Source: Geoglobus acetivorans (GTDB lineage: Archaea; Halobacteriota; Archaeoglobi; Archaeoglobales; Archaeoglobaceae). Taken from it: 64,000 bases of DNA. Below are positions 21,844-42,692 of the stretch, piece after piece (position 1 is the stretch's first letter; the number at the start of each line of letters is the position of its first letter). Where the stretch lies: NCBI RefSeq assembly GCF_039641995.1, contig NZ_CP087714.1, positions 868,001 through 932,000 of the forward strand, given 5' to 3'. Both the position numbers and the translations under genes were made by a program. The notes beneath the pieces are model-generated. The model searched no databases. It was not told the origin of the DNA and saw only the letters and a list, made by a program, of their open reading frames with translations.

Positions 21844-22242
21844 ATGGAAAAAAGGCTTTACAGAGAAAGGGAGGACAGGATACTTTTCGGGGTGCTTGCA
21901 GGCATTGCAAGATATCTGGAACTTGATCCTGCCATTGTCAGGATTGCCTTCATCCTTGTTTGCCTTGTTCAGCCCGTTTTCATTCTCGGATACTTTTTAA
22001 TGGCCATTGCGATTCCTGAGAAAAAAGCTGCAAACACTCCTGAAGGTTTTGATGATGTCGAAACGCCGGCCTTTAACTACGCGCCAGATGAACGGAAGAA
22101 CAGAAACTTCATAGGCATCGTGCTTGTTGCCATAGGGGCATATGTCCTCCTTGAGGAGTATGTCTTTTTCCCCTTCGGCGTCAGGGAGCTGGCAGGGCTG
22201 CTGATGGTGGCGCTTGGTGTTTACGTTCTCATAAAGAAGTAA
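21844..22242 (+). CDS. PspC domain membrane protein
   Basis: A 132-residue protein with an N-terminal PspC domain (KRLYREREDRILFGVLAGIARYLELDP in parts, about residues 3-30, then a long hydrophobic helix) and, after a charged linker, two more short hydrophobic segments. PspC domains occur in envelope-stress systems of bacteria and in many archaeal membrane proteins, where the role is unknown. A TATA-like AACTATATC about 30 bp upstream suggests its own promoter. It is convergent with the ABC permease gene, with no gap between stop codons. Confidence 0.8.
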   Translation: MEKRLYREREDRILFGVLAGIARYLELDPAIVRIAFILVCLVQPVFILGYFLMAIAIPEKKAANTPEGFDDVETPAFNYAPDERKNRNFIGIVLVAIGAYVLLEEYVFFPFGVRELAGLLMVALGVYVLIKK

Positions 22243-23358
22243 TCATTCGTATCTCAGGGCTTCAATCGGTTCAAGGTTGCTGGCTCTCCATGCAGGATAC
22301 AGTCCGCTGATTACTGCTGTGAGAATGCCGAAAAAGAAACCCTCAAGAGAAAATATTACTGTTGTGAGGTTGAAGATCGTCGCAACATCTCCCAGTATGA
22401 GCTTTGTTATCAGGTAGCCCCCGGCAATGCTCAAGACTGCCCCAACGAAACTTCCTGACACTCCCAGGATCGATGCCTCGAGCAGAAAGATTTTCATGAT
22501 GATCTTTTTCCTCGCACCTATTGCACGCATTATGCCTATCTCCTTTGTTCTCTCGATTGTTGACATGAGCATGATGTTCAGTATACTCACTCCAGCCACG
22601 AGCAGGGACACTCCGGCTATTGCCATTAGAAACAGGTTCATCTGTGCGAACGCTTCATCTATTCTGTTAAGTATGGATTTCATCTCAAGAAGCTCTACTT
22701 TCTCGTCTTTCATGTTGACTGTCCTTGATATGTACTTCTTGAACGGTTCAATGTCCTCAATGTTCTTGACCTTTACAATCACTGCAGAATACTCTGCGGG
22801 ATGCTCCTTCGGAGAAATTATTACTGCATTATTTGGATTTATATCAAATCTTGCTCCTTCTTTTTCGAGAATTGCGGAAATTCTGTATATCTTTCCGTTC
22901 AGGGTTATCTTGTCTCCCAGCCTTATTTTAAGGTCCTCTGCGAGGGACTTCCCTATTATTGCTCTTCCTGCCTTTAGATTTATAACTCCCGATTCCGCCT
23001 TGAAAAGATCAGCCACATTCTGTTCATCAAGACCGTAAACCGTTACGACTCGTTTATCTCCCCGAAATAAAAGCTCAAAAGCATCAGCTTTAACGGGAAT
23101 TACCTGAGAAACAAACGGGGACTTTTGTATTGTTTCTATATCTCTGTCGTCAATGAATCTGTATCCCTCTTTGGGATTGGGGGAAATTATAATCTCATTG
23201 GCTATATCTCCAAAACTCTGGAGAACGGCTTTTTTCAGGTTATCTCCGAAAATTCCTATGGACGTTATTGCAGTAACACCTATGATAATCCCGATTATTG
23301 CCAGAACGCTCCTCACTCTCGCTCTGCTCAGATTCCTAATTGCCAGCTGAAGATACAT
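22243..23358 (-). CDS. MacB-type ABC transporter permease (FtsX-like)
   Basis: A 371-residue permease of the MacB/FtsX group: one N-terminal helix (SVLAIIGIIIGVTAITSIG), a large extracellular MacB_PCD-type domain (about residues 40-235), then three helices in the FtsX core, including STIERTKEIGIMRAIGARKK. Such permeases usually drive mechanical work on external partners rather than bulk transport. It overlaps the ATPase gene by 23 bp and belongs to a three-gene operon with the secreted protein at 24019-25272. A parallel system lies at 38973-42259. Confidence 0.9.
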   Translation of the reverse strand: MYLQLAIRNLSRARVRSVLAIIGIIIGVTAITSIGIFGDNLKKAVLQSFGDIANEIIISPNPKEGYRFIDDRDIETIQKSPFVSQVIPVKADAFELLFRGDKRVVTVYGLDEQNVADLFKAESGVINLKAGRAIIGKSLAEDLKIRLGDKITLNGKIYRISAILEKEGARFDINPNNAVIISPKEHPAEYSAVIVKVKNIEDIEPFKKYISRTVNMKDEKVELLEMKSILNRIDEAFAQMNLFLMAIAGVSLLVAGVSILNIMLMSTIERTKEIGIMRAIGARKKIIMKIFLLEASILGVSGSFVGAVLSIAGGYLITKLILGDVATIFNLTTVIFSLEGFFFGILTAVISGLYPAWRASNLEPIEALRYE

Positions 23359-24022
23359 TTATGATCCTCCCGTCCCTCAGTCTAACCACCCTATCTGCAT
23401 AACTTTTCAGCGACTCATCGTGCGTTACGAGGACGACCGTAACCCCTTCTTCGTTGAGAACCCTGAGGATTTCCATAACCTGTTTCCCGGTCTGTGAGTC
23501 AAGGTTACCTGTCGGTTCATCGCAGAGCAGGATTTCGGGATTGTTGGCAAGAGCTCTTGCTATTGCAACCCTCTGCTGCTGCCCCCCACTCATTTCCACC
23601 GGTTTTCTGTCTGCCTCTTTTTCAATCCCCACCAGCTTCAAAAGCTCCATTGCCCTTTCACTCCTTTCCTGCTCACTCTTGCCCCTGAAAATCATGGGTA
23701 GCTCCACGTTTTCTCTGGCTGTCAGAGTCGGAATCAGATTGAACTGCTGGAATACAAATCCTATGGTGTCTCTCCTCAGATCGGTAAGCTCGTCATCATT
23801 GAGCCCGGATGTGGCGACGCCGTTTATGTAAATCTCTCCTTCAGTTGGCTTATCAAGGCAGCCAATCAGGTTGAGCATTGTACTTTTTCCACTGCCTGAC
23901 GGCCCCATGATTGTCAGAAACTCTTCCTTCTCTATTTCCAGATTTATACCGTCAAGTGCCCTCACTTCGTAAAATTCCGTCCTGTACACTTTTTTGACGT
24001 TGTCGAATACCACGACCTTCAT
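23336..24022 (-). CDS. ABC transporter ATPase, MacB/LolD type
   Basis: A 228-residue ATPase with Walker A GPSGSGKST, signature MSGGQQQRVAIARAL, Walker B ILLCDEPTGNLD, and the switch histidine in LVTHD. Sequence FVFQQFNLIPTLTARENVELP is typical of the LolD/MacB class. It overlaps both neighbours (23 bp into the permease, 4 bp with the secreted protein), so the three proteins are made from one message and in that order: secreted protein, ATPase, permease. Confidence 0.95.
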   Translation of the reverse strand: MKVVVFDNVKKVYRTEFYEVRALDGINLEIEKEEFLTIMGPSGSGKSTMLNLIGCLDKPTEGEIYINGVATSGLNDDELTDLRRDTIGFVFQQFNLIPTLTARENVELPMIFRGKSEQERSERAMELLKLVGIEKEADRKPVEMSGGQQQRVAIARALANNPEILLCDEPTGNLDSQTGKQVMEILRVLNEEGVTVVLVTHDESLKSYADRVVRLRDGRIINVSSAGN

Positions 24023-25272
24023 TTTCTCCTGAACGCCAGAATTGCAAGCAATATTATTGCCACCGATACGATTGCGGAAGCGTAGAGAATCTCTCTACCT
24101 CCTTCGGTGCTTTTTATTTCGGCCTTTCTCTCTTCAGCAAATGATGAGATTGTCAGCACGTTACCTGCCAGGTTTTTCCAGCTCACCTCAATTGTTCCGT
24201 TGCCCTTTGCCTTGAACGAGAACACTTCGTAATCCTCTGGAAGAATAGAACCGACAAAATAGCTTTTACCTCCAAAGCGTACTATGACGTTTTTAACCTC
24301 GGTTGAACCGAGATTGCACACTTCTCCTGTAAGTGTGCTGTCCTCGAATTCATATCCGCATATCTGTACTGCACTTTCGTTAATTGTGCTGAATTCGAGC
24401 TTTTTTGTCATCTCATGCTCTTTTCCAAGTTCATCTCTGTATTTCAGCGTAACATCTGTACTTTTTTCCGGCTGAATGTAAAAATGTCCCTCCCAGGTCT
24501 CGTTTGGCTTCAGCTCCGGAATGAACTTCTCATTCTCTCCGATGGCTATGGTCAGAGAATTTATCGGCGATTTTTTAAGGTTGGCGACCTTGACGGTAAC
24601 TTCAACAGCCTCATTTGAGTATGCGTTACGATTATATGTAACGGAAAGGGTAACCCCCGATGATGTGACCCATACCGGATTTACCTCCTTTACAACACTG
24701 TGGATGTTATCTCCGTTGTTGTATTCAATCTCAAAACGGAGTTTTTCCGGTTTTTCTGGTGTGAAAACGAATTCAAAGTCGTTTCCATAACTTTCTGAAG
24801 GAGAAGCGTTGAATAGTGGTTTAATCCTTACCGCAGAATCCCAGATAGCCGAAACAGAAATTATGTTCTTCTCTCCGAGATACACCTCGCTGGTCCTTAG
24901 AACCAGTTCCGGTTCAGCGCTTTCGACTGTGAAGGGTATGTATGTCCTTATTATTCCGTTATATGTTTTCACACTCACCTCAACAATGTGTGTCCCCTCT
25001 TTTTCGGCTTTGAAGATGAACGGGAGGCGATATTCTGAGTTGGGAGGTATCACTCCCACTTCAGAGAATATTCTCGGTGAAATGAGGTCTGAAAAGAATA
25101 CAATGCTTCGTAGATTCTCCGGAATTGGATTAGGGTTTTTTATTATCAGGAAGCATTCCACCTCGTCGCCCACGAGTATTCTGTCCTGGCCGATCTCGTA
25201 GGTTACCGACACCTGGGCGGCAGCAGGGGCGATTAATATGAGGAGACCGATAAAGAAAATCAATTTTTTCAT
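24019..25272 (-). CDS. Secreted, membrane-anchored beta-sandwich protein of an ABC system
   Basis: A 417-residue protein with an N-terminal signal peptide (MKKLIFFIGLLILIAPAAA), about 370 residues of beta-rich extracellular sequence, and a C-terminal anchor (ASAIVSVAIILLAILAF) with a basic end. Segments such as GDEVECFLIIKNPNPIPENL and NEAVEVTVKVANLKKSPINSL are typical of CARDB/NEW3-like immunoglobulin-type domains, probably three in tandem. It heads the operon with the MacB-type ATPase and permease and probably acts as their external partner. No haem or metal motif is visible. Confidence 0.75.
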   Translation of the reverse strand: MKKLIFFIGLLILIAPAAAQVSVTYEIGQDRILVGDEVECFLIIKNPNPIPENLRSIVFFSDLISPRIFSEVGVIPPNSEYRLPFIFKAEKEGTHIVEVSVKTYNGIIRTYIPFTVESAEPELVLRTSEVYLGEKNIISVSAIWDSAVRIKPLFNASPSESYGNDFEFVFTPEKPEKLRFEIEYNNGDNIHSVVKEVNPVWVTSSGVTLSVTYNRNAYSNEAVEVTVKVANLKKSPINSLTIAIGENEKFIPELKPNETWEGHFYIQPEKSTDVTLKYRDELGKEHEMTKKLEFSTINESAVQICGYEFEDSTLTGEVCNLGSTEVKNVIVRFGGKSYFVGSILPEDYEVFSFKAKGNGTIEVSWKNLAGNVLTISSFAEERKAEIKSTEGGREILYASAIVSVAIILLAILAFRRK

Positions 25273-25341: not shown

Positions 25342-26625
25342 TTAAATGGGCTTTCTCCACACCAATATCAGTGTGAGGACAACCCTGGTAAGGGACAGAA
25401 CGGCCAGCAATACGAACAACTCCAAAACCGCGTCGAATATCAGAAATAGCATTATGAGAAATATTCTTTCATCCCTCTTTCCGGGAATTTTTCTCAAAAC
25501 CGGGTAATCCTGAAAAATGCTCCTGCCAAACGCCCCTCTGTATCTCTCTGAGGTGTAGCTCACCATGTAGCTGCCAAACGCTGCAAGGGAGAAGAGAACC
25601 CATCCGGTCGTGTCGAGGCTGGAGGTATAGGCAAGGCCAAGCAGGAAAAGGAAATCGACGATTCTGTCCAGATTTGAATCTATCCAGCCGCCAAACGGAC
25701 TGCCCATCATCTTCGCCCGTGCAATTTCTCCATCAATGCCATCTAAAATTGAACTCAGCTGAAAAAATATGCCCGCAACAGGTTTGGAGAAAAATATCAG
25801 TAAAAAGGACATTGTTCCTGCGAGAAAGCTTATGAGGGATGCTTGGTTTGGAGTAAGGCTATTAATGACCTTTTCTGTAATCCTGATCGATATCTTCCTG
25901 TTCAGGTGCCTTGAAATGAATCCGTCCTCTCCAGACTTTATGCTCCTCCTTATAATCTCCCTGTTGGCCCTTTCAAGCTCCTCCTCAGTGTCAACATCCA
26001 TCCAGAATTTGCCCGAAACCAGTGTGACCTCCACTCTCGCTTTTTCCATAATTTCGGAAAGGGACACCTCTTCCTTTTCTCTTACAATTTCTTCAGCATG
26101 CCTGAAAATTTCAGGTGTCAGTACAAAAAATCCGGTGTCAATGCAGTCGAAATCTGTCAGCTCTTTCCCTATTCTCTCCACCCTGCCATTTTTTACTCTG
26201 ACTTTTGTGGCCTCGCTGATATCCACGAATTCCGGTTCGGGATCTCCAACCAGGCCCTTTGCTCTCACAGCCTCTTTTATAAACTCTTCTTCGTAAACAT
26301 GGTCGCCCATTATCAGAATGAACTCCTCGTTGATGAAGTCTTTTGCCAGGTAGAGGGAATATCCATTGCCTTTTTCAGGATGGGCATTGGTGACATGTCT
26401 GAATTTGAAACCCTCTCTTTCAAGAAACTCCATGATCTGAGGTCCGAATTTGGGATTGATGACGAGAATGAACTCCTGAACACCGCACTCTTGGAGCATT
26501 TTGATGTTTCTCCAGATTATTTCTCTGCCCCCCACCCTCAGCAATGCTTTCGGGCGACCTCCCATTCGTGTCCCCAGACCGGCTGTGAGTATCACCGCCT
26601 TTCTGGGAACATTTCCGGAGGTCAT
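25342..26625 (-). CDS. Bifunctional IPCT/DIPP synthase for di-myo-inositol phosphate
   Basis: A 427-residue fusion known from Archaeoglobus and other hyperthermophiles. The N-terminal half is a nucleotidyltransferase (LTAGLGTRMGGRPKALL, MGDHVYEEEF) that makes CDP-inositol; the C-terminal half is a membrane CDP-alcohol phosphatidyltransferase with the full motif, seen as DGIDGEIARA followed at the right spacing by G, D and D (GGWIDSNLD, near residues 293-320) and several helices. The product route leads to di-myo-inositol-1,1'-phosphate, a heat-induced solute. The DIP synthase motif distinguishes it from ordinary lipid enzymes only by the fusion. Confidence 0.88.
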   Translation of the reverse strand: MTSGNVPRKAVILTAGLGTRMGGRPKALLRVGGREIIWRNIKMLQECGVQEFILVINPKFGPQIMEFLEREGFKFRHVTNAHPEKGNGYSLYLAKDFINEEFILIMGDHVYEEEFIKEAVRAKGLVGDPEPEFVDISEATKVRVKNGRVERIGKELTDFDCIDTGFFVLTPEIFRHAEEIVREKEEVSLSEIMEKARVEVTLVSGKFWMDVDTEEELERANREIIRRSIKSGEDGFISRHLNRKISIRITEKVINSLTPNQASLISFLAGTMSFLLIFFSKPVAGIFFQLSSILDGIDGEIARAKMMGSPFGGWIDSNLDRIVDFLFLLGLAYTSSLDTTGWVLFSLAAFGSYMVSYTSERYRGAFGRSIFQDYPVLRKIPGKRDERIFLIMLFLIFDAVLELFVLLAVLSLTRVVLTLILVWRKPI

Positions 26626-36470: not shown

Positions 36471-38897
36471 GTGAGCAAAAAAATTAAGCTTAAGGTAGAG
36501 GGGATGACCTGTGCATCCTGTGCAAGGACAGTCGAGACAGCAGCGATGCAGGTAGATGGAGTCAGGAAAGCGAGCGTCAATCTGGCCACGGAATCTCTTC
36601 AGCTTGAACTGGACCCCGAAAAGGCAAGAATCGAGGAGATAAAAAAGGCAATCGAAGAGGTGGGCTATAGAATCCCGGAAGAGGAGAAAGCAGTTGTGGT
36701 GAAAATAGGCGGGATGACCTGTGCTTCATGTGCCAAAACCATTGAAGTTGCGGTTGGCAGTCTTGATGGGGTAAAGAGCATTACCGTCAACCTCGCAACC
36801 GAAAGTGCCAGGATTGTCTACAATCCTTCGGTTACCGAAATTGAGGACATCAGAAAGGCCATAGAGGAAGTCGGTTATCAGTTTCTGGGTATTGAAGGTG
36901 AAGAGCTGAAAGAGGAGGCCAAGGGGGACCACGTCAGGGAGATGAAGAAAAAACTCGCATTTGCGTCGGTATTCGGTGCAGTTCTTCTTGTCATGCAGTA
37001 TGGAAAGTATGTTGGCCTTCCCGAAATACCCTACAACAGCATCATCCAGTTCATTCTCGCTACACCTGTCATGCTCTATTCGGGCAGGGAGATGTTCCTT
37101 GCCGCAGTGAGAGCCCTCAGACACAGAATGCTCAACATGGATGTGATGTACTCGATGGGTGTCGGCTCGGCATACACCGCAAGCGTCCTGTCAACAATAG
37201 GGCTTCTGCCCGAGGACTACCTCTTCTACGAGACGGCAGTTCTGCTTCTCGCTTTCCTGCTCCTTGGCAGGACACTCGAAGCGATAGCCAAAGGAAGGAC
37301 GAGCGAGGCAATCAAGAAGCTGATCGGGTTGCAGGCAAAAACCGCCGTCGTCGTCAGGGATGGCAGGGAGATCGAGGTTCCAGTTGAGGAGGTCAGAGTT
37401 GGGGACATTGTCATAGTAAAGCCTGGGGAGAAGATACCTGTTGATGGTGTTGTCATCGAGGGAGAGAGCTACGTTGACGAGTCGATGATCACCGGAGAAC
37501 CGATTCCAGCGCTTAAAAAGAAGGGAGATGAGGTTGTTGGAGCGACCATAAACAAAAATGGCGTGCTGAAAGTCAAAGCCACGAGGGTTGGTAGCGACAC
37601 GCTGCTTGCCCAGATAATAAGGCTCGTTGAGGAGGCAATGGGGAGCAGGCCGCCGATTCAGAAGCTGGCCGACAAGATTGTCGCTTACTTCATACCCGTG
37701 GTGCTGACAATAGCAATAACCTCGTTCATCTACTGGTACTTCATAGCAGGCGTACCGGAAATCTTTGCATTCACGACTCTCGTTGCCGTGCTTGTGATAG
37801 CCTGCCCCTGTGCCTTTGGGCTTGCGACGCCGACTGCACTGACAGTGGGAATGGGCAAGGGTGCGGAGCTTGGAATACTCATCAAGAATGGAGAAGCTCT
37901 TGAGATCGCGAGGAGAGTAACGACCGTCGTGTTCGACAAAACCGGAACACTGACGAAGGGTAAGCCGGAGGTTACGGACATCGTTGCTTTTGAAGGCGAT
38001 GAGACGGAGGTGCTGAGGATTGCGGCAATAGCAGAGAAGAGGAGTGAGCATCCTCTGGCTGAGGCGGTTGTTAGGAAAGCAGAGGAGACAGGAGCGCAGA
38101 TTGACGAGCCAGAGAGATTTGAGGTCATTACAGGAAAGGGAGTAGTTGCTTCACTTAACGGAGAGAAAATACTGGTTGGAAGCAGGAAGCTGATGGCGGA
38201 AAATGGAATGGAGGTGAGCAGCGAGATTGAGGACACACTTCAGAGGCTTGAGAGCGAGGCGAAGACCGCCGTACTCGTGTCACACAACGGCAGGATCATA
38301 GGTGCAATAGGCATCGCGGACAACATAAAACCGTCTGCGAAGGAAGCAATCGAGGAACTTCACAGAATCGGCAAGAAAGTTGCAATGATTACCGGGGATA
38401 ATAGGAGAACTGCCGAAGCTATCGCAAGAAGGCTCGGCATCGACACCGTTCTTGCTGAGGTTCTCCCACACCAGAAGGCTGAGGAGGTAAAGAGGCTTCA
38501 GAAAAATGGAGAAGTGGTTGCGTTCGTTGGAGACGGCATAAACGATGCCCCAGCTTTAGCTCAGGCAGATCTTGGCATAGCGATTGGAAGTGGAACTGAC
38601 GTGGCCATAGAGAGCGGAGAGATTGTGCTTATGAGGGACGATTTGCGCGATGTTGTTGCAGCAATACAGCTCAGTGAGAAGACTCTGAACAAGATAAAGC
38701 AGAACCTGTTCTGGGCTATGATCTACAACACCATACTGATTCCGGTGGCCGCGGGAGTTCTTTATCCGGTGTTCGGCATAGTCTTCAGGCCTGAATGGGC
38801 TGGACTGGCAATGGCGATGAGTAGTGTGAGCGTGGTCACAAACTCGCTGCTGATGAAGAACTATATCCCGCCGGTTAATAGAAGAGCGAAATCGTAA
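36471..38897 (+). CDS. copA: Cu(I)-exporting P1B-type ATPase CopA
   Basis: An 808-residue CopA. Two N-terminal HMA domains carry GMTCASCA (near residues 10-18 and 82-90). The membrane copper site is CPC in [13 protein letters not shown] near residue 443. Phosphorylation motif DKTGTLT is near 488, SEHPLAEA in the N domain, MITGDN near 640 and GDGINDAPA near 686. The start is a GTG placed 5 bp after a palindromic site. Codon-level similarity to copB is high in several catalytic segments, including a 41 bp identical block. Confidence 0.96.
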
Positions 38898-38972: not shown

Positions 38973-40412
38973 ATGCTGAAGATGAATGGTGCCGGAATGA
39001 TGGGGCTGGCTTTGCTGATCCTGCTCATCCTGACTGTGCCTGCCATGGCCTCAAATCCGCTTGCTGTTGATTACACCATAACGCCTTCAACCGTCAAACC
39101 CGGTGTTGAGGGATATGTGGAAATAATGCTCACCAACCCCGGAACCACTCCCATACAGGACATTTACGTTTTCAGGGTTGATGCCGAGGGGCCGGTGGTT
39201 ATCAAGGACTACCGGAAGGATGTTGGTGATCTATCTCCCGGAACGTCGAGAACCCTGATAGTGAGGTTTTCGGTGCCCGAAACTGCGAAGGCAGGATACT
39301 ATCTGGTTGATGTGGACCTCAGGATGAGAGTTGCAGGCTCATCAGAAAGGTATGTGTTTCAAATACCTGTTGAAGTTCGAGAAGAGAGTCTCGTGGGTCT
39401 CAGCATATCTCCCGAAAAGATCGAGGCGAACACACCTGTCAATCTCACGCTCAGGGTTGAAAATGCTGGTGGAGAGATCAGAAACCTCAGGATATTCTGG
39501 TCGGGCGATGGGCTAATCCCGCTGTCTGAAAGCTCTCCATTGCTAATCCCTTCCATGGGTCCAGGCGATGTGGAGGAGTTCAGTCTCAGGGTGAAAGCTC
39601 TGGAACAGGGGACGGCCGTTCTGGTTTTCAACATCACTTACTCTGATGTTACCGGCAATGTTATCCGGGAGGCCAGAACATTGGCCTTGGACGTTGTTGC
39701 GAAAAATGAGAGCTTTCTGAACGTCACTCTCACGCCCAGCGTACTTGAGATTGGAAGTGGTGGAAAGCTCATTTTCAATCTCGCTGCAGAGGGGACTGAC
39801 GAGCTGAAAAACGTTCTGATCAGCTGGAGGAGCGAGGCGATCATGCCATCTTCATCCAACTCCAGGTTCATAGATTCAATTCAACCCGGAGAGCAAAAGG
39901 CCGTTACATTTGATGTTTTCGTCAATGAAGGCGTTCAGCCCGGCTATTATCCTGTTGAGGTGGCGGTGGAATACGATTATTCGGGGATGAAAGTCAAGTC
40001 GGAAGAGTCGTTCTCAGTTATGGTTACCGGGGATATTTCTCTAACCGCAACGCTCTTCAGGGCTGAGAATGACAAGGTGTTCATCTCGGTTGCCAACACC
40101 GGAAATGCCCCGGCGAAGAATTTGGTTGTTTATGCAAGTTCCGAATACGGAAAGGGTGAGGTGTTTATAGGCGACATGGCTCCGGGTGACGAGGAGATCA
40201 TTGAGGTTGACCAGAAAAATGTCGACACGTCCAAGCCTTACAACATCACGCTGAAGCTTGAATACAGAGATGTTTTCGGCAAAAGGTATTCGGAAGTCAG
40301 TGAAGTGAACGTTCACCACTTCAGAGAGAGTTATTCGTCTACGTACCTTCTGGGTGGGGCTTTACTTCTGGTACTTGTCCTTGGGGCTGTCTGGTATATC
40401 AGGAAAAGGTAG
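38973..40412 (+). CDS. Secreted CARDB/NEW3-like protein of a second ABC system
   Basis: A 479-residue protein with a signal peptide (LALLILLILTVPAMA), about four tandem immunoglobulin-like beta-sandwich repeats (for example VKPGVEGYVEIMLTNPGTTP, ANTPVNLTLRVENAGGEI, VFISVANTGNAPAKNLVVYA), and a C-terminal helix (YLLGGALLLVLVLGAVWYI) with a basic end. The repeats are of the NEW3/CARDB kind found on archaeal surfaces. ATG 38973 has GGAGGTG five bases upstream; the TTG at 38970 is too close to it. It starts an operon with a MacB-type permease and ATPase. Confidence 0.78.
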   Translation: MLKMNGAGMMGLALLILLILTVPAMASNPLAVDYTITPSTVKPGVEGYVEIMLTNPGTTPIQDIYVFRVDAEGPVVIKDYRKDVGDLSPGTSRTLIVRFSVPETAKAGYYLVDVDLRMRVAGSSERYVFQIPVEVREESLVGLSISPEKIEANTPVNLTLRVENAGGEIRNLRIFWSGDGLIPLSESSPLLIPSMGPGDVEEFSLRVKALEQGTAVLVFNITYSDVTGNVIREARTLALDVVAKNESFLNVTLTPSVLEIGSGGKLIFNLAAEGTDELKNVLISWRSEAIMPSSSNSRFIDSIQPGEQKAVTFDVFVNEGVQPGYYPVEVAVEYDYSGMKVKSEESFSVMVTGDISLTATLFRAENDKVFISVANTGNAPAKNLVVYASSEYGKGEVFIGDMAPGDEEIIEVDQKNVDTSKPYNITLKLEYRDVFGKRYSEVSEVNVHHFRESYSSTYLLGGALLLVLVLGAVWYIRKR

Positions 40413-40424
40413 CGGGGAGTGAAA

Positions 40425-41555
40425 ATGGTTTCCATAGCGAGAAAAAATCTGTTCCATGAAAAGGGAAGGCTGGTGATAAGTATAGGAGGTGTTGCGTTCT
40501 CAACCATGCTGATAATGGTTCTGATGGGCGTGTATTACGGAATATTCACCGAAAGCACGATGTATCTGAGGAAGACTAACGCAGACCTGTGGGTGGGACA
40601 GGAGGGCATACATGACACCTGGCACACATACTCTCTGCTGCCGAGAGGGCTTGATGAGGAGATACGGAGGGTTGGTGGAGTTAAGGACGTTCATGAATTT
40701 ATTGGGAGGGCCGTGAGGGCAAAGGTATCCAAGGTGGTGGACAAGGAGGAGACGATATACATCATCGGCTTTGACACGAAAACCGGCGTTGGAGGACCGT
40801 GGGAAATCGTGAAGGGCAAGAAGATACCGCGGGATGGCCAGGTGATAGTGGACAGGGTTTTCGCAACAAGAAACGGTATCGATATTGGAGATAAGATCGA
40901 GGTTGGTGGAGTCGAGCTAACAGTGGTTGGCATCTCCAAAGATACATTTGTTCTTGTCTATTCCTATGCTTTTGTTACAAAGGAGGATGCGGAGAAGATA
41001 TTTGGGGCTGAAGATTTCCTGAATTACTACATGGTGGAGGTCGATAACCCGTTCTTTGCTGAAAAGATAGCAGATAACATAAAGAGCAGGCTCGAAAGTC
41101 TGGGGGTTAAGGTGGACGTTCTCACAAAGCAGAAATTCATAGACAATCACAAGGAGGTGATAGATGAGAGTTTCAGCGCGATACTCCTTCCTCTGGTCTT
41201 CATAGGGTTTTTCATAGGTGTCACGGTTATAGGATTAACGCTGTACACCGCAACTCTGGAGAAGATGAAGGAATATGCGATTTTGAAGGCTATCGGGGCG
41301 GATGAGACGTTCATGATGCGAATAGTGCTGGAACAGGCTTTTACAATCGCCCTGCTTGGATTTGCTGCGGGCTCAATTCTGTCATTTCTGGCGGCAAACC
41401 TAATCCCAAATGTCGCTCCCGAGTTTTATGTGGAAATCAACCTGCAGAACGTGGTCATGACATTCGGTTCCATTGTGGTCATGAGCCTGGTTGCCGCACT
41501 CATACCAATAAGGAGGCTTGAAAGGATAGAGCCAGCAACCGTGTTCCAGGCGTGA
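40425..41555 (+). CDS. MacB-type ABC permease, second system
   Basis: A permease of about 376 residues with one N-terminal helix (LVISIGGVAFSTMLIMVLMGVYY in part), a large external domain (residues 45-250) and three C-terminal helices in FtsX order (LPLVFIGFFIGVTVIGLTL, IVLEQAFTIALLGFAAG, VVMTFGSIVVMSLVAALIP), including EYAILKAIGADETF. It resembles DevC-type as well as MacB permeases. ATG 40425 with GGGGAG upstream is preferred; GTG 40419 is possible. The following ATPase gene begins at its stop codon. Confidence 0.88.
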   Translation: MVSIARKNLFHEKGRLVISIGGVAFSTMLIMVLMGVYYGIFTESTMYLRKTNADLWVGQEGIHDTWHTYSLLPRGLDEEIRRVGGVKDVHEFIGRAVRAKVSKVVDKEETIYIIGFDTKTGVGGPWEIVKGKKIPRDGQVIVDRVFATRNGIDIGDKIEVGGVELTVVGISKDTFVLVYSYAFVTKEDAEKIFGAEDFLNYYMVEVDNPFFAEKIADNIKSRLESLGVKVDVLTKQKFIDNHKEVIDESFSAILLPLVFIGFFIGVTVIGLTLYTATLEKMKEYAILKAIGADETFMMRIVLEQAFTIALLGFAAGSILSFLAANLIPNVAPEFYVEINLQNVVMTFGSIVVMSLVAALIPIRRLERIEPATVFQA

Positions 41556-41560
41556 GGGTG

Positions 41561-42259
41561 ATGGATGTGGATGAGGCGATTCTGGAAGTCAGAAACGTGA
41601 CTAAAATCTACGGTTCTGGAAGAACTGCCGTAAAGGCCGTTGATAATATCTCCTTTTCCATCAGCAGGGGCGAACTTGTTCTCCTCATGGGTCCGTCTGG
41701 CTCTGGCAAAACCACTCTGCTCACCCTCATAAGCGGCCTTCTGAAGCCAACTTCCGGGAGCGTGAAAATAGATGGGGTTGAGATAACCGAACTGAGCCAG
41801 AAGGAGCTTGCAAGGATAAGGCTCGAGAAGATCGGCTTCATATTCCAGCACTTCAATCTTCTCTCAGCTTTAACTGCCCTTGAGAATGTGATGATTCCGC
41901 TGATAATCCGGGGTGTTGGGGAGAGGGAAGCGAGGAAAAGGGCCGAGAAAATCCTTGCGGATTTTGGACTGAAGGACAGAATGCACCACAAACCTGAAGA
42001 CCTTTCTGGAGGGGAGCAGCAGAGGGTGGCGATAGCGAGAGCTGTGATAAGCGATCCGGATTTGATCATTGCAGATGAGCCCACGGCCAACCTGGATTCC
42101 AAGAAGGGGAGAGAAGTCATGGAACTCATACACTCAATGGTGAGGGATGGAAAGGCGGCAATAATTGCAAGCCACGATCCGAGGGTTGAAGATTTCGCGG
42201 ACCGTGTTTTGAGAATGGAGGACGGGAGGTTGAAGAGTGATGAGCGCAAGGGTCCTTGA
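41561..42259 (+). CDS. ABC ATPase, MacB/LolD type, second system
   Basis: A 232-residue ATPase with Walker A GPSGSGKTT, signature LSGGEQQRVAIARAV, Walker B LIIADEPTANLDS and switch histidine in IASHD. FIFQHFNLLSALTALENVM is typical of the class. The gene order here (secreted protein, permease, ATPase) differs from that of the first system (secreted protein, ATPase, permease). The GTG at 41552 would overlap the permease stop; ATG 41561 was taken. The next gene starts inside its last codons. Confidence 0.93.
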   Translation: MDVDEAILEVRNVTKIYGSGRTAVKAVDNISFSISRGELVLLMGPSGSGKTTLLTLISGLLKPTSGSVKIDGVEITELSQKELARIRLEKIGFIFQHFNLLSALTALENVMIPLIIRGVGEREARKRAEKILADFGLKDRMHHKPEDLSGGEQQRVAIARAVISDPDLIIADEPTANLDSKKGREVMELIHSMVRDGKAAIIASHDPRVEDFADRVLRMEDGRLKSDERKGP

Positions 42260-42692
42260 AAAAAGGCGGGTGAGGTCCTGGCACGGGCTTGAATTTGAAA
42301 TAGTCATATGGAGTAACTGGTGGGCAAAAATAGGGTTCATGCTTCACCCTCAGGTGGCCAACTTCATGATGAGGTACGGCCTTCCGGAGAGTGTCAGGGG
42401 CAGAATGGAGGTTCTCCACGAATTCGGCCACGTGCAGATGTTTCCACTCGTTCTGATTTACTATCTGCCGTTTTTGTTTCTCGGAATCTCGGGGTGGTGG
42501 GAATTCACCATTGTTACCGCAGGAATGCTGCTTTTCTGGGAAATTCTTGCCGAGGCCTATGTGGCTGTGAAGTTTGATGGATACTCTGAGGTTTACAGAG
42601 AGAACCTTCACCCGTTTGCGGTCATTTACTGGGTTTTAATCGTTACAGCAGTTTTGCTTCCTGCGATTGCTGTAATTGCTGGAGTGCTGTAA
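42240..42692 (+). CDS. Membrane protein with HExxH zinc-peptidase motif
   Basis: A 150-residue protein with an amphipathic N-terminus, the motif HEFGH (H60, E61, H64) at the start of the first long hydrophobic segment, two further helices, and acidic residues E101 and E105 (FWEILAEAYV) that could supply a third zinc ligand. I recognise no named family. HExxH at a helix boundary recalls site-2 or M48-like membrane peptidases, but the protein is very short. It overlaps the ABC ATPase gene by 20 bp, so it is part of the second ABC operon. Confidence 0.6.
   Translation: MSARVLEKRRVRSWHGLEFEIVIWSNWWAKIGFMLHPQVANFMMRYGLPESVRGRMEVLHEFGHVQMFPLVLIYYLPFLFLGISGWWEFTIVTAGMLLFWEILAEAYVAVKFDGYSEVYRENLHPFAVIYWVLIVTAVLLPAIAVIAGVL

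Follow-up and report, generated by a model that had tools for sequence, protein, structure and literature searches.

A C-terminally anchored Ig-like protein is the usual operon partner of archaeal MacB-type ABC transporters and may act as an adaptor-like component

Two MacB-type operons and their secreted beta-sandwich proteins

The genome of Geoglobus acetivorans consists of 1.90 Mb on a single contig. Here we describe two operons from a 64-kb stretch of this contig (the window), in which an ATPase and a permease of the MacB type are encoded together with a secreted beta-sandwich protein. The original prediction placed these operons at positions 22243–25272 and 38973–42692, and both are real, with exactly these coordinates. 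Operon 1 (22243–25272, minus strand) is composed of three overlapping genes, P0001, P0002 and P0003, with an overlap of 4 nt between the first two and 23 nt between the last two. It is led by P0001 (24019–25272), a secreted protein of 417 aa, which is assigned as the beta-sandwich partner based on Pfam, an AlphaFold model and its orthologues. P0002 (23336–24022; 228 aa) is an ATP-binding cassette (ABC) ATPase of the LolD/MJ0796 type. It matches Pfam ABC_tran, and its top sequence match among the PDB structures is MJ0796 of M. jannaschii (1F3O, 1L2T, 3TIF; E 1.1e-80). The latter is a textbook ABC ATPase dimer. P0003 (22243–23358; 371 aa) is a MacB-type permease with Pfam scores of 90.6 bits for MacB_PCD and 74.9 bits for FtsX; its closest solved relative by sequence is MacB. 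The AlphaFold model of P0003 (predicted local distance difference test, pLDDT, 85.9) contains four membrane helices (residues 14–53, 226–269, 284–322 and 331–360) and a large extracytoplasmic domain (residues 54–225; 22684–23199) lying after helix 1 and before helix 2. The structures 5xu1 and 5gko head the Foldseek matches of the model; by protein, the best matches are a Streptococcus MacB-like permease, MacB and LolE, and YknZ is matched as well; the extracytoplasmic domain corresponds to those of MacB, YknZ and LolE.

Operon 2 (38973–42692, plus strand) begins with P0004 (38973–40412; 479 aa), the second secreted partner, which matches Pfam NPCBM_assoc (NEW3) with 47.0 bits (cut-off 24.4) and CARDB with 33.1 bits. 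It is followed by P0005 (40419–41555; 378 aa), a second permease, MacB/DevC-like, for which the NCBIfam matches remain under the cut-offs and the Pfam scores are 41.6 bits for MacB_PCD and 56.2 bits for FtsX; both P0003 and P0005 exceed the Pfam cut-offs. P0006 (41552–42259; 235 aa) is a second LolD-type ATPase by its ABC_tran match. The last gene, P0007 (42237–42692), encodes a protein of 151 aa in which hydrophobic segments and the motif HEFGH are seen and for which neither Pfam (at E 1) nor NCBIfam gives a match; a relative of it is present in another locus of this operon type, L107. By their domains and co-encoded ATPase, and for P0003 also by its predicted topology, the pairs P0002/P0003 and P0005/P0006 are assigned to the type VII ABC (MacB) superfamily.

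The model of P0001 was built from an alignment of 38 sequences and has a mean pLDDT of 91.7. It shows four all-beta domains of immunoglobulin (Ig)-like fold, a weak linker and a single helix at residues 393–416. No helix of at least four residues is found between the signal region and this C-terminal helix. The hydrophobic N-terminal signal sequence covers residues 1–19 (25216–25272), of which 2–12 are helical in the model, and is followed by domain 1 (residues 22–117; 24922–25209) and domain 2 (residues 122–203; 24664–24909), both with hand-drawn borders. Domain 3 (residues 207–293; 24394–24654) contains a borderline CARDB match at residues 212–278, and domain 4 (residues 295–379; 24136–24390), delimited from the model and conservation, is membrane-proximal. 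The hydrophobic C-terminal helix (24025–24096) ends in a short basic tail. Both the signal peptide and the C-terminal anchor are called from hydropathy together with the model. The CARDB score of P0001 is 22.6 bits, 0.1 bit under the cut-off of 22.7, and its counterpart in locus L034, where the permease is 98% identical to P0003, just passes with 23.9 bits. Conservation is spread over the protein, with the strongest positions mainly in domains 2 and 4 (8 each); domains 1 and 3 have 3 and 2 positions, respectively, above the conservation threshold (32 of 38 rows). Structural matches of P0001 (Foldseek, VIA-align) include Ig-like, ciliary ASH, complement/macroglobulin, transglutaminase and arrestin domains; most have a large overall root-mean-square deviation, and we take from them the fold class and no function.

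P0001 was also considered as a relative of MacA, the adaptor of bacterial MacB, and this was rejected: there is no Pfam HlyD match, and hhalign of the alignment of its orthologues against 45 bacterial partners gives a probability of 1.6. MacA is absent from the structural matches listed, which in itself excludes nothing. With neither a lipoyl/barrel-sandwich domain (Pfam) nor a helical hairpin (model), P0001 lies outside the HlyD/membrane fusion protein adaptor family.

Distribution of the partner in archaea and bacteria

This lineage is not known to have an outer membrane. The original prediction proposed that the beta-sandwich protein may be the archaeal working partner of MacB-type genes. 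The archaeal set consisted of 80 hand-chosen regions, nearly all around relatives of the permease, and four archaeal loci (L114, L115, L121 and L159) taken from a capped scan whose best 80 loci, minus these four, made up the bacterial set. Two of the four have a called ATPase, and one of these two has a strict partner; L159 is an Archaeoglobales metagenome-assembled genome carrying a relative of the operon type. Open reading frame (ORF) calls were home-made and anchors were assigned by a hydropathy rule, the strict architecture being defined as hydrophobic segments at the N- and C-terminus with nothing hydrophobic in between. Since no ATPase was called in them, 18 of the 89 archaeal and 22 of the 78 bacterial runs were left out, leaving 71 and 56.

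A partner of strict architecture is found in 51 of the 71 archaeal ATPase–permease runs, directly upstream in 43 and between the ATPase and the permease in 8, and four further runs have a partner with the C-terminal segment alone. By contrast, the strict architecture is present in none of the 56 bacterial runs, 34 of which have a neighbour with the N-terminal segment alone. Control genes from the same regions (at least 180 aa, at least three genes distant) carry both anchors in 4 of 261 cases in archaea and 1 of 178 in bacteria. Given 4/261 archaeal control genes versus 51/71 partner positions, the association is above chance. Thus, NEW3-like anchored proteins and MacB-type genes co-occur well outside the window. 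In archaeal operons, MacB-type genes usually have the beta-sandwich protein as their partner, and this pairing is broadly distributed in the phylum of the window.

The two sets of partners differ in their domains as well. Among the 65 archaeal partners scanned (E ≤0.01), CARDB is matched by 43 and NPCBM_assoc by 9, with a few unrelated neighbours, for example, two PadR regulators and one LolA_like protein. In bacteria, HlyD_3, the domain of HlyD/MacA adaptors, is found in 44 of 45 partners. A basic tail follows the C-terminal hydrophobic helix in 60 of the 61 archaeal partners that have such a helix, and a lipobox-like motif in none of these 61. The strict architecture is found in 10 of 13 archaeal families (12 of 13 if profile matches are counted). 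The gene set stays together while its order varies: partner–ATPase–permease in 39 runs, ATPase–partner–permease in 8, partner–permease–ATPase in 2 and, in one run, the last order with a second partner at the end. Several loci contain tandem permeases. In L074 (4998–8653), one ATPase and one partner are followed by three tandem permease genes, and in the Methanimicrococcus genome, which has a partner in both regions (L297 and L298), four tandem permeases are found in L297; several other loci have two. It is as if different permease pairs shared one partner.

No HlyD match is present in P0001 or P0004 (Pfam), nor among the best 25 of 46 families for the 65 archaeal partners, and HlyD_3 has no match in the G. 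acetivorans genome. Among 60 relatives, HlyD_3 is matched in 16, above the cut-off in 15. These matches start at position 2 and end at 30–36 of the 106 profile positions, in frames of 135–235 aa, and 8 of the 16 score higher with their neighbours in frame; they are probably lipoyl/biotinyl carrier domains. In a control panel, HlyD_3 is found in 11 of 14 genomes, including the archaea Haloferax volcanii and Sulfolobus acidocaldarius, so that the absence holds for these relatives only. The claim that archaea have no adaptor is therefore too wide. No MacA-like adaptor is seen among the partner families listed or, by this one HlyD_3 search, in these genomes.

Partner and permease also diverge together. 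Across 38 trios, tree distances correlate with r of 0.90 for partner and permease, 0.84 for partner and ATPase and 0.82 for ATPase and permease, and the partial correlation of partner and permease given the ATPase is 0.67, a value reached by 0 of 999 permutations. Two genomes, G019 and G035, have second operons in which the partners are mutual nearest relatives and so are the permeases; the ATPases of these operons are not, their nearest relative being that of L050. The correlated distances show joint inheritance of partner and permease, which is no proof of contact.

Partners beside other exporters

In the G. acetivorans genome, FtsX-domain matches identify three genes, namely, P0003, P0005 and a gene located at 1.04 Mb, which encodes a permease of 775 aa. 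The last has in front of it an ATPase and a 483-aa partner (NPCBM_assoc 63 bits, CARDB 59 bits). Thus, each of the three FtsX-domain genes found in this genome shares its operon with genes for a LolD/MJ0796-type ATPase and an anchored beta-sandwich partner. A candidate fourth type VII operon at G000:C1:219065 was rejected, the MacB_PCD score there being 20.4 bits, below the cut-off, with no FtsX match.

A profile of P0001 relatives retrieves from the same genome the three operon partners and two further proteins. One, of 606 aa, is encoded by a gene overlapping the start of a gene for a 736-aa MMPL-family protein. The other, a weak match (E 0.004) of 716 aa, overlaps the start of a gene for a 541-aa transporter of the major facilitator superfamily (MFS) with 14 helices and lies after a gene for a PadR-type regulator. 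This pairing of partner homologues with MMPL/resistance-nodulation-division (RND) and MFS exporters lies outside the window and goes beyond the original prediction. We examined 21 MMPL loci chosen from the match list, 22 of 34 MFS matches with at least 50% identity (the subfamily) and 19 of 44 weaker MFS matches (paralogues), counting upstream neighbours that share the strand and lie no more than 150 bp away. In 14 of the 21 MMPL loci, such a neighbour has the anchored architecture, with one more cut at a contig end and one with the protein downstream. The architecture is also found in 12 of the 22 MFS-subfamily loci, where three more are cut at contig ends and one more misses the strict rule, and in none of the 19 loci of the MFS paralogues.

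For profile comparisons, alignment A6 was built from the MFS-subfamily neighbours that lie upstream on the same strand and have 180 aa or more (15 of 16, leaving out the soluble neighbour in L235), and alignment A7 was built likewise from the MMPL set (15 of 16, leaving out the soluble neighbour in L275). NPCBM_assoc is matched by all 15 MFS partners and all 15 MMPL partners scanned. The MFS and MMPL partner profiles match each other with a probability of 100 (E 7.6e-67) and each matches that of the ABC partners with 99, a link that is partly expected because CARDB/NEW3 domains are shared. Median partner length is 441 aa with ABC (n = 55), 609 aa with MMPL (n = 14) and 694.5 aa with MFS (n = 12). 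Because arm length tracks the exporter class, the arm may compensate for the reach of each exporter.

Possible roles of the anchored protein and genes around the operons

The operons resemble MacAB-TolC, YknXYZ and Spr0693-0695 in the permease fold, the LolD-type ATPase and the gene for an extracytoplasmic partner just upstream. The partners themselves differ: those of the MacA type are N-terminally anchored HlyD-family proteins with lipoyl, barrel and hairpin parts, whereas in the archaeal partner Ig-like domains form a string that is anchored at its C-terminus. LolCDE-LolA belongs to the same type VII superfamily, and LolC and LolE match the P0003 model. Two or more tandem permeases, as in LolCDE, are found in several archaeal operons, but the window operons have one permease each. 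No LolA match is found in the window operons (Pfam), and among the 65 archaeal partners one is LolA_like. This protein, at L104 (4818–5591; PF17131, E 1.7e-53), adjoins an ATPase and a permease in G005, a draft genome with 9% contamination, and is part of an archaeal Lol-like system or, alternatively, lies on a contig of bacterial origin.

Type VII systems typically derive their function from a partner protein (PMC12646458). YbbAP-TesA, FtsEX-EnvC and BceAB-BceS are likewise type VII permeases with a function-setting partner (PMC12646458), in these cases an esterase, a hydrolase activator and a sensor kinase, but an Ig-domain arm is not found among these partners. Since a type VII partner reveals function, the consistent archaeal partner makes the role of the machine a testable question. 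The texts on type VII systems (PMC5985334, PMC12646458 and PMC8277102) deal with bacteria, and PMC8277102 names the archaeal MJ0796, which it links to LolD. Among the matches listed in our literature search on MJ0795, MJ0796 and MJ0797, MJ0796 alone is named. FtsX and CARDB both match in the M. jannaschii control genome, and the operon of MJ0796 presumably includes a beta-sandwich protein.

We favour, with modest confidence, the reading that the products of the operon make up an archaeal type VII ABC machine of three parts, in which the Ig-like partner is adaptor-like yet stands outside the adaptor family. The place in the operon, the C-terminal anchor, the Ig string and the kin beside two other exporter classes all suit such a role. 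The parts would be the LolD/MJ0796-type ATPase, the four-helix permease of MacB fold and the anchored protein with its four outside Ig-like domains; this protein takes the operon place of the bacterial HlyD/MacA adaptor. That these parts form a physical complex, how the arm is used and the direction of transport we infer as follows. Binding of ATP by the ATPase dimer would close the permease dimer, and the movement would be passed to the permease extracytoplasmic domains. Such mechanotransmission is established for MacB, LolCDE and FtsEX. The adjacent anchored arm would then take over, guide or release a molecule, either hydrophobic or a peptide, that has been lifted off the outward-facing side of the membrane into the space under the surface layer (S-layer). 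The proposal that S-layer or lipid-anchored proteins are moved finds no support, as our analysis yields nothing on the substrate.

Several observations weigh against this adaptor-like reading. The runs are not independent, with 34 of 54 strict-architecture runs belonging to the window's own family, and shared ancestry alone can yield correlated distances. Three families (f2, f8 and f14) lack the strict architecture; f2 and f14 have profile matches and f8 has nothing. Of the 15 families searched, f12 lacks a match to the permease, and f4, where the matches lie in frames of ~967 aa, was left out of the count. No partner–permease fusion was found, as no ORF in the three scanned ORF sets matched both profiles. 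In the phylum of L121, which is titled Thermoplasmata archaeon, an L121-like permease (E 1e-20) is present in 12 of 60 genomes, including its own. Apart from L121 itself, a same-strand partner was called in three (L286, L287 and L288) of the 13 regions fetched from these genomes. In L295 the partner is on the opposite strand, and no same-strand partner was called at L284 and L285, the closest relatives of the L121 permease. Thus, the partner link is common in the phylum of the window and patchy in the other phylum examined. Finally, CARDB and NEW3 domains are common modules. In G. acetivorans itself, a likewise anchored CARDB protein of 612 aa (L212, 4599–7368) adjoins a signal-peptidase-like gene (Peptidase_S26), a non-exporter, so such proteins are not all exporter partners.

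The main rivals to the adaptor-like role are a sensor or tether and a cargo. The anchored Ig-like protein could be a sensor, regulator or tether, responding to surface stress or fastening the transporter to the S-layer or its sugars, without touching the substrate. Type VII partners include the membrane sensor kinase BceS and the hydrolase activator EnvC (PMC12646458), CARDB denotes a cell adhesion related domain (PMC8416519), and the partner is held in the membrane by a single helix in the model. However, with no more than a few basic residues, its cytoplasmic tail offers no room for a signalling domain, and the presence of homologues with three unrelated kinds of transporters suits a mechanical or delivery role at least equally well. 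We regard this explanation as unlikely, though far from negligible. The Ig-like protein could instead be the cargo, a surface-layer or adhesin-like protein that needs the transporter for assembly, release or modification. Type VII systems are not known to pass folded proteins across the membrane, which argues against this, and the partner has its own signal sequence and membrane anchor. The rule of one matching partner per operon, the correlated divergence and the MFS-subfamily homologues are also hard to explain for a cargo. In its favour, the Thermococcus barophilus protein TERMP_00597 (NPCBM_assoc, with ABC neighbours in STRING) is found in the supernatant, not exclusively, and TERMP_01807, an S-layer domain protein beside an MFS gene, in the supernatant only (PMC10667668). 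We consider a cargo role improbable.

A working link would be absent altogether if the neighbourhood were merely an inherited operon structure, and the origin of most counts from one family, which makes them non-independent, is compatible with this. The varied gene orders, the presence in 10 of 13 families, the 4/261 controls, the 0/19 MFS paralogues and the MacA-type neighbours in bacteria speak against it, making such an explanation highly implausible.

To our knowledge, bacterial HAE-3/MMPL pumps mostly lack adaptors. EmrA and AcrA represent one adaptor family serving ABC, RND and MFS exporters (PMC5985334), and the archaeal partners adjoin the same three classes. Some of these adaptors lack single domains (PMC5985334), and the coiled coil of EmrA, which serves MFS pumps, is extra-long (PMC4158417). 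By contrast, the archaeal ABC partners are C-terminally anchored, and no sequence link between them and the HlyD-type adaptors was found (hhalign 1.6). Tentatively, and as a possibility we would not yet call probable, there may be an archaeal exporter–adaptor superfamily, in which C-terminally anchored Ig/NEW3 strings serve MacB-type ABC, MMPL/RND and MFS exporters and have evolved independently of the bacterial HlyD, MacA, EmrA and AcrA adaptors. The arm may carry substrates beyond the membrane face to the S-layer. In Thermococcus, two proteins of this type, one with ABC and the other with MFS neighbours, have been read in terms of sugar transport (PMC10667668), and these neighbours are independently consistent with the wider partner pattern. 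Elsewhere, CARDB or COG1361 proteins are named surface or adhesion proteins (PMC10354927 and PMC10553843), and 858 archaeal CARDB neighbourhoods have been examined (PMC8416519), where the supplement may tabulate ABC neighbours. No paper on the partner–exporter association in general was among the matches listed in our literature search. If a partner family shared with MMPL and MFS exporters is confirmed, archaea that lack an outer membrane would possess a counterpart of the bacterial adaptor assembled from other parts, adaptors would do more than bridge two membranes, and a role would be suggested for many proteins labelled as S-layer, NPCBM or CARDB domain proteins.

Both operons have neighbours of possible relevance. 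Convergent to operon 1 lies a gene for a PspC-domain protein (21844–22242), the membrane part of which is LiaI/LiaF-like (below the cut-off), and a PspC relative also adjoins the same operon in L034–L037; the position of envelope-stress proteins next to this machine may be meaningful. A 427-aa protein (25342–26625), encoded upstream of operon 1 and in the same direction, appears by eye to be a nucleotidyltransferase fused to a CDP-alcohol phosphatidyltransferase. Directly before operon 2, the gene at 36471–38897 encodes a protein that carries a DKTGT motif besides two metal-binding motifs of sequence CASC and is judged by eye to be a copper-type P-ATPase; operon 2 may be connected with metal stress. 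In L107 and L108, the operon is preceded by an ORF of matching size (811 and 808 aa, respectively, with several helices).

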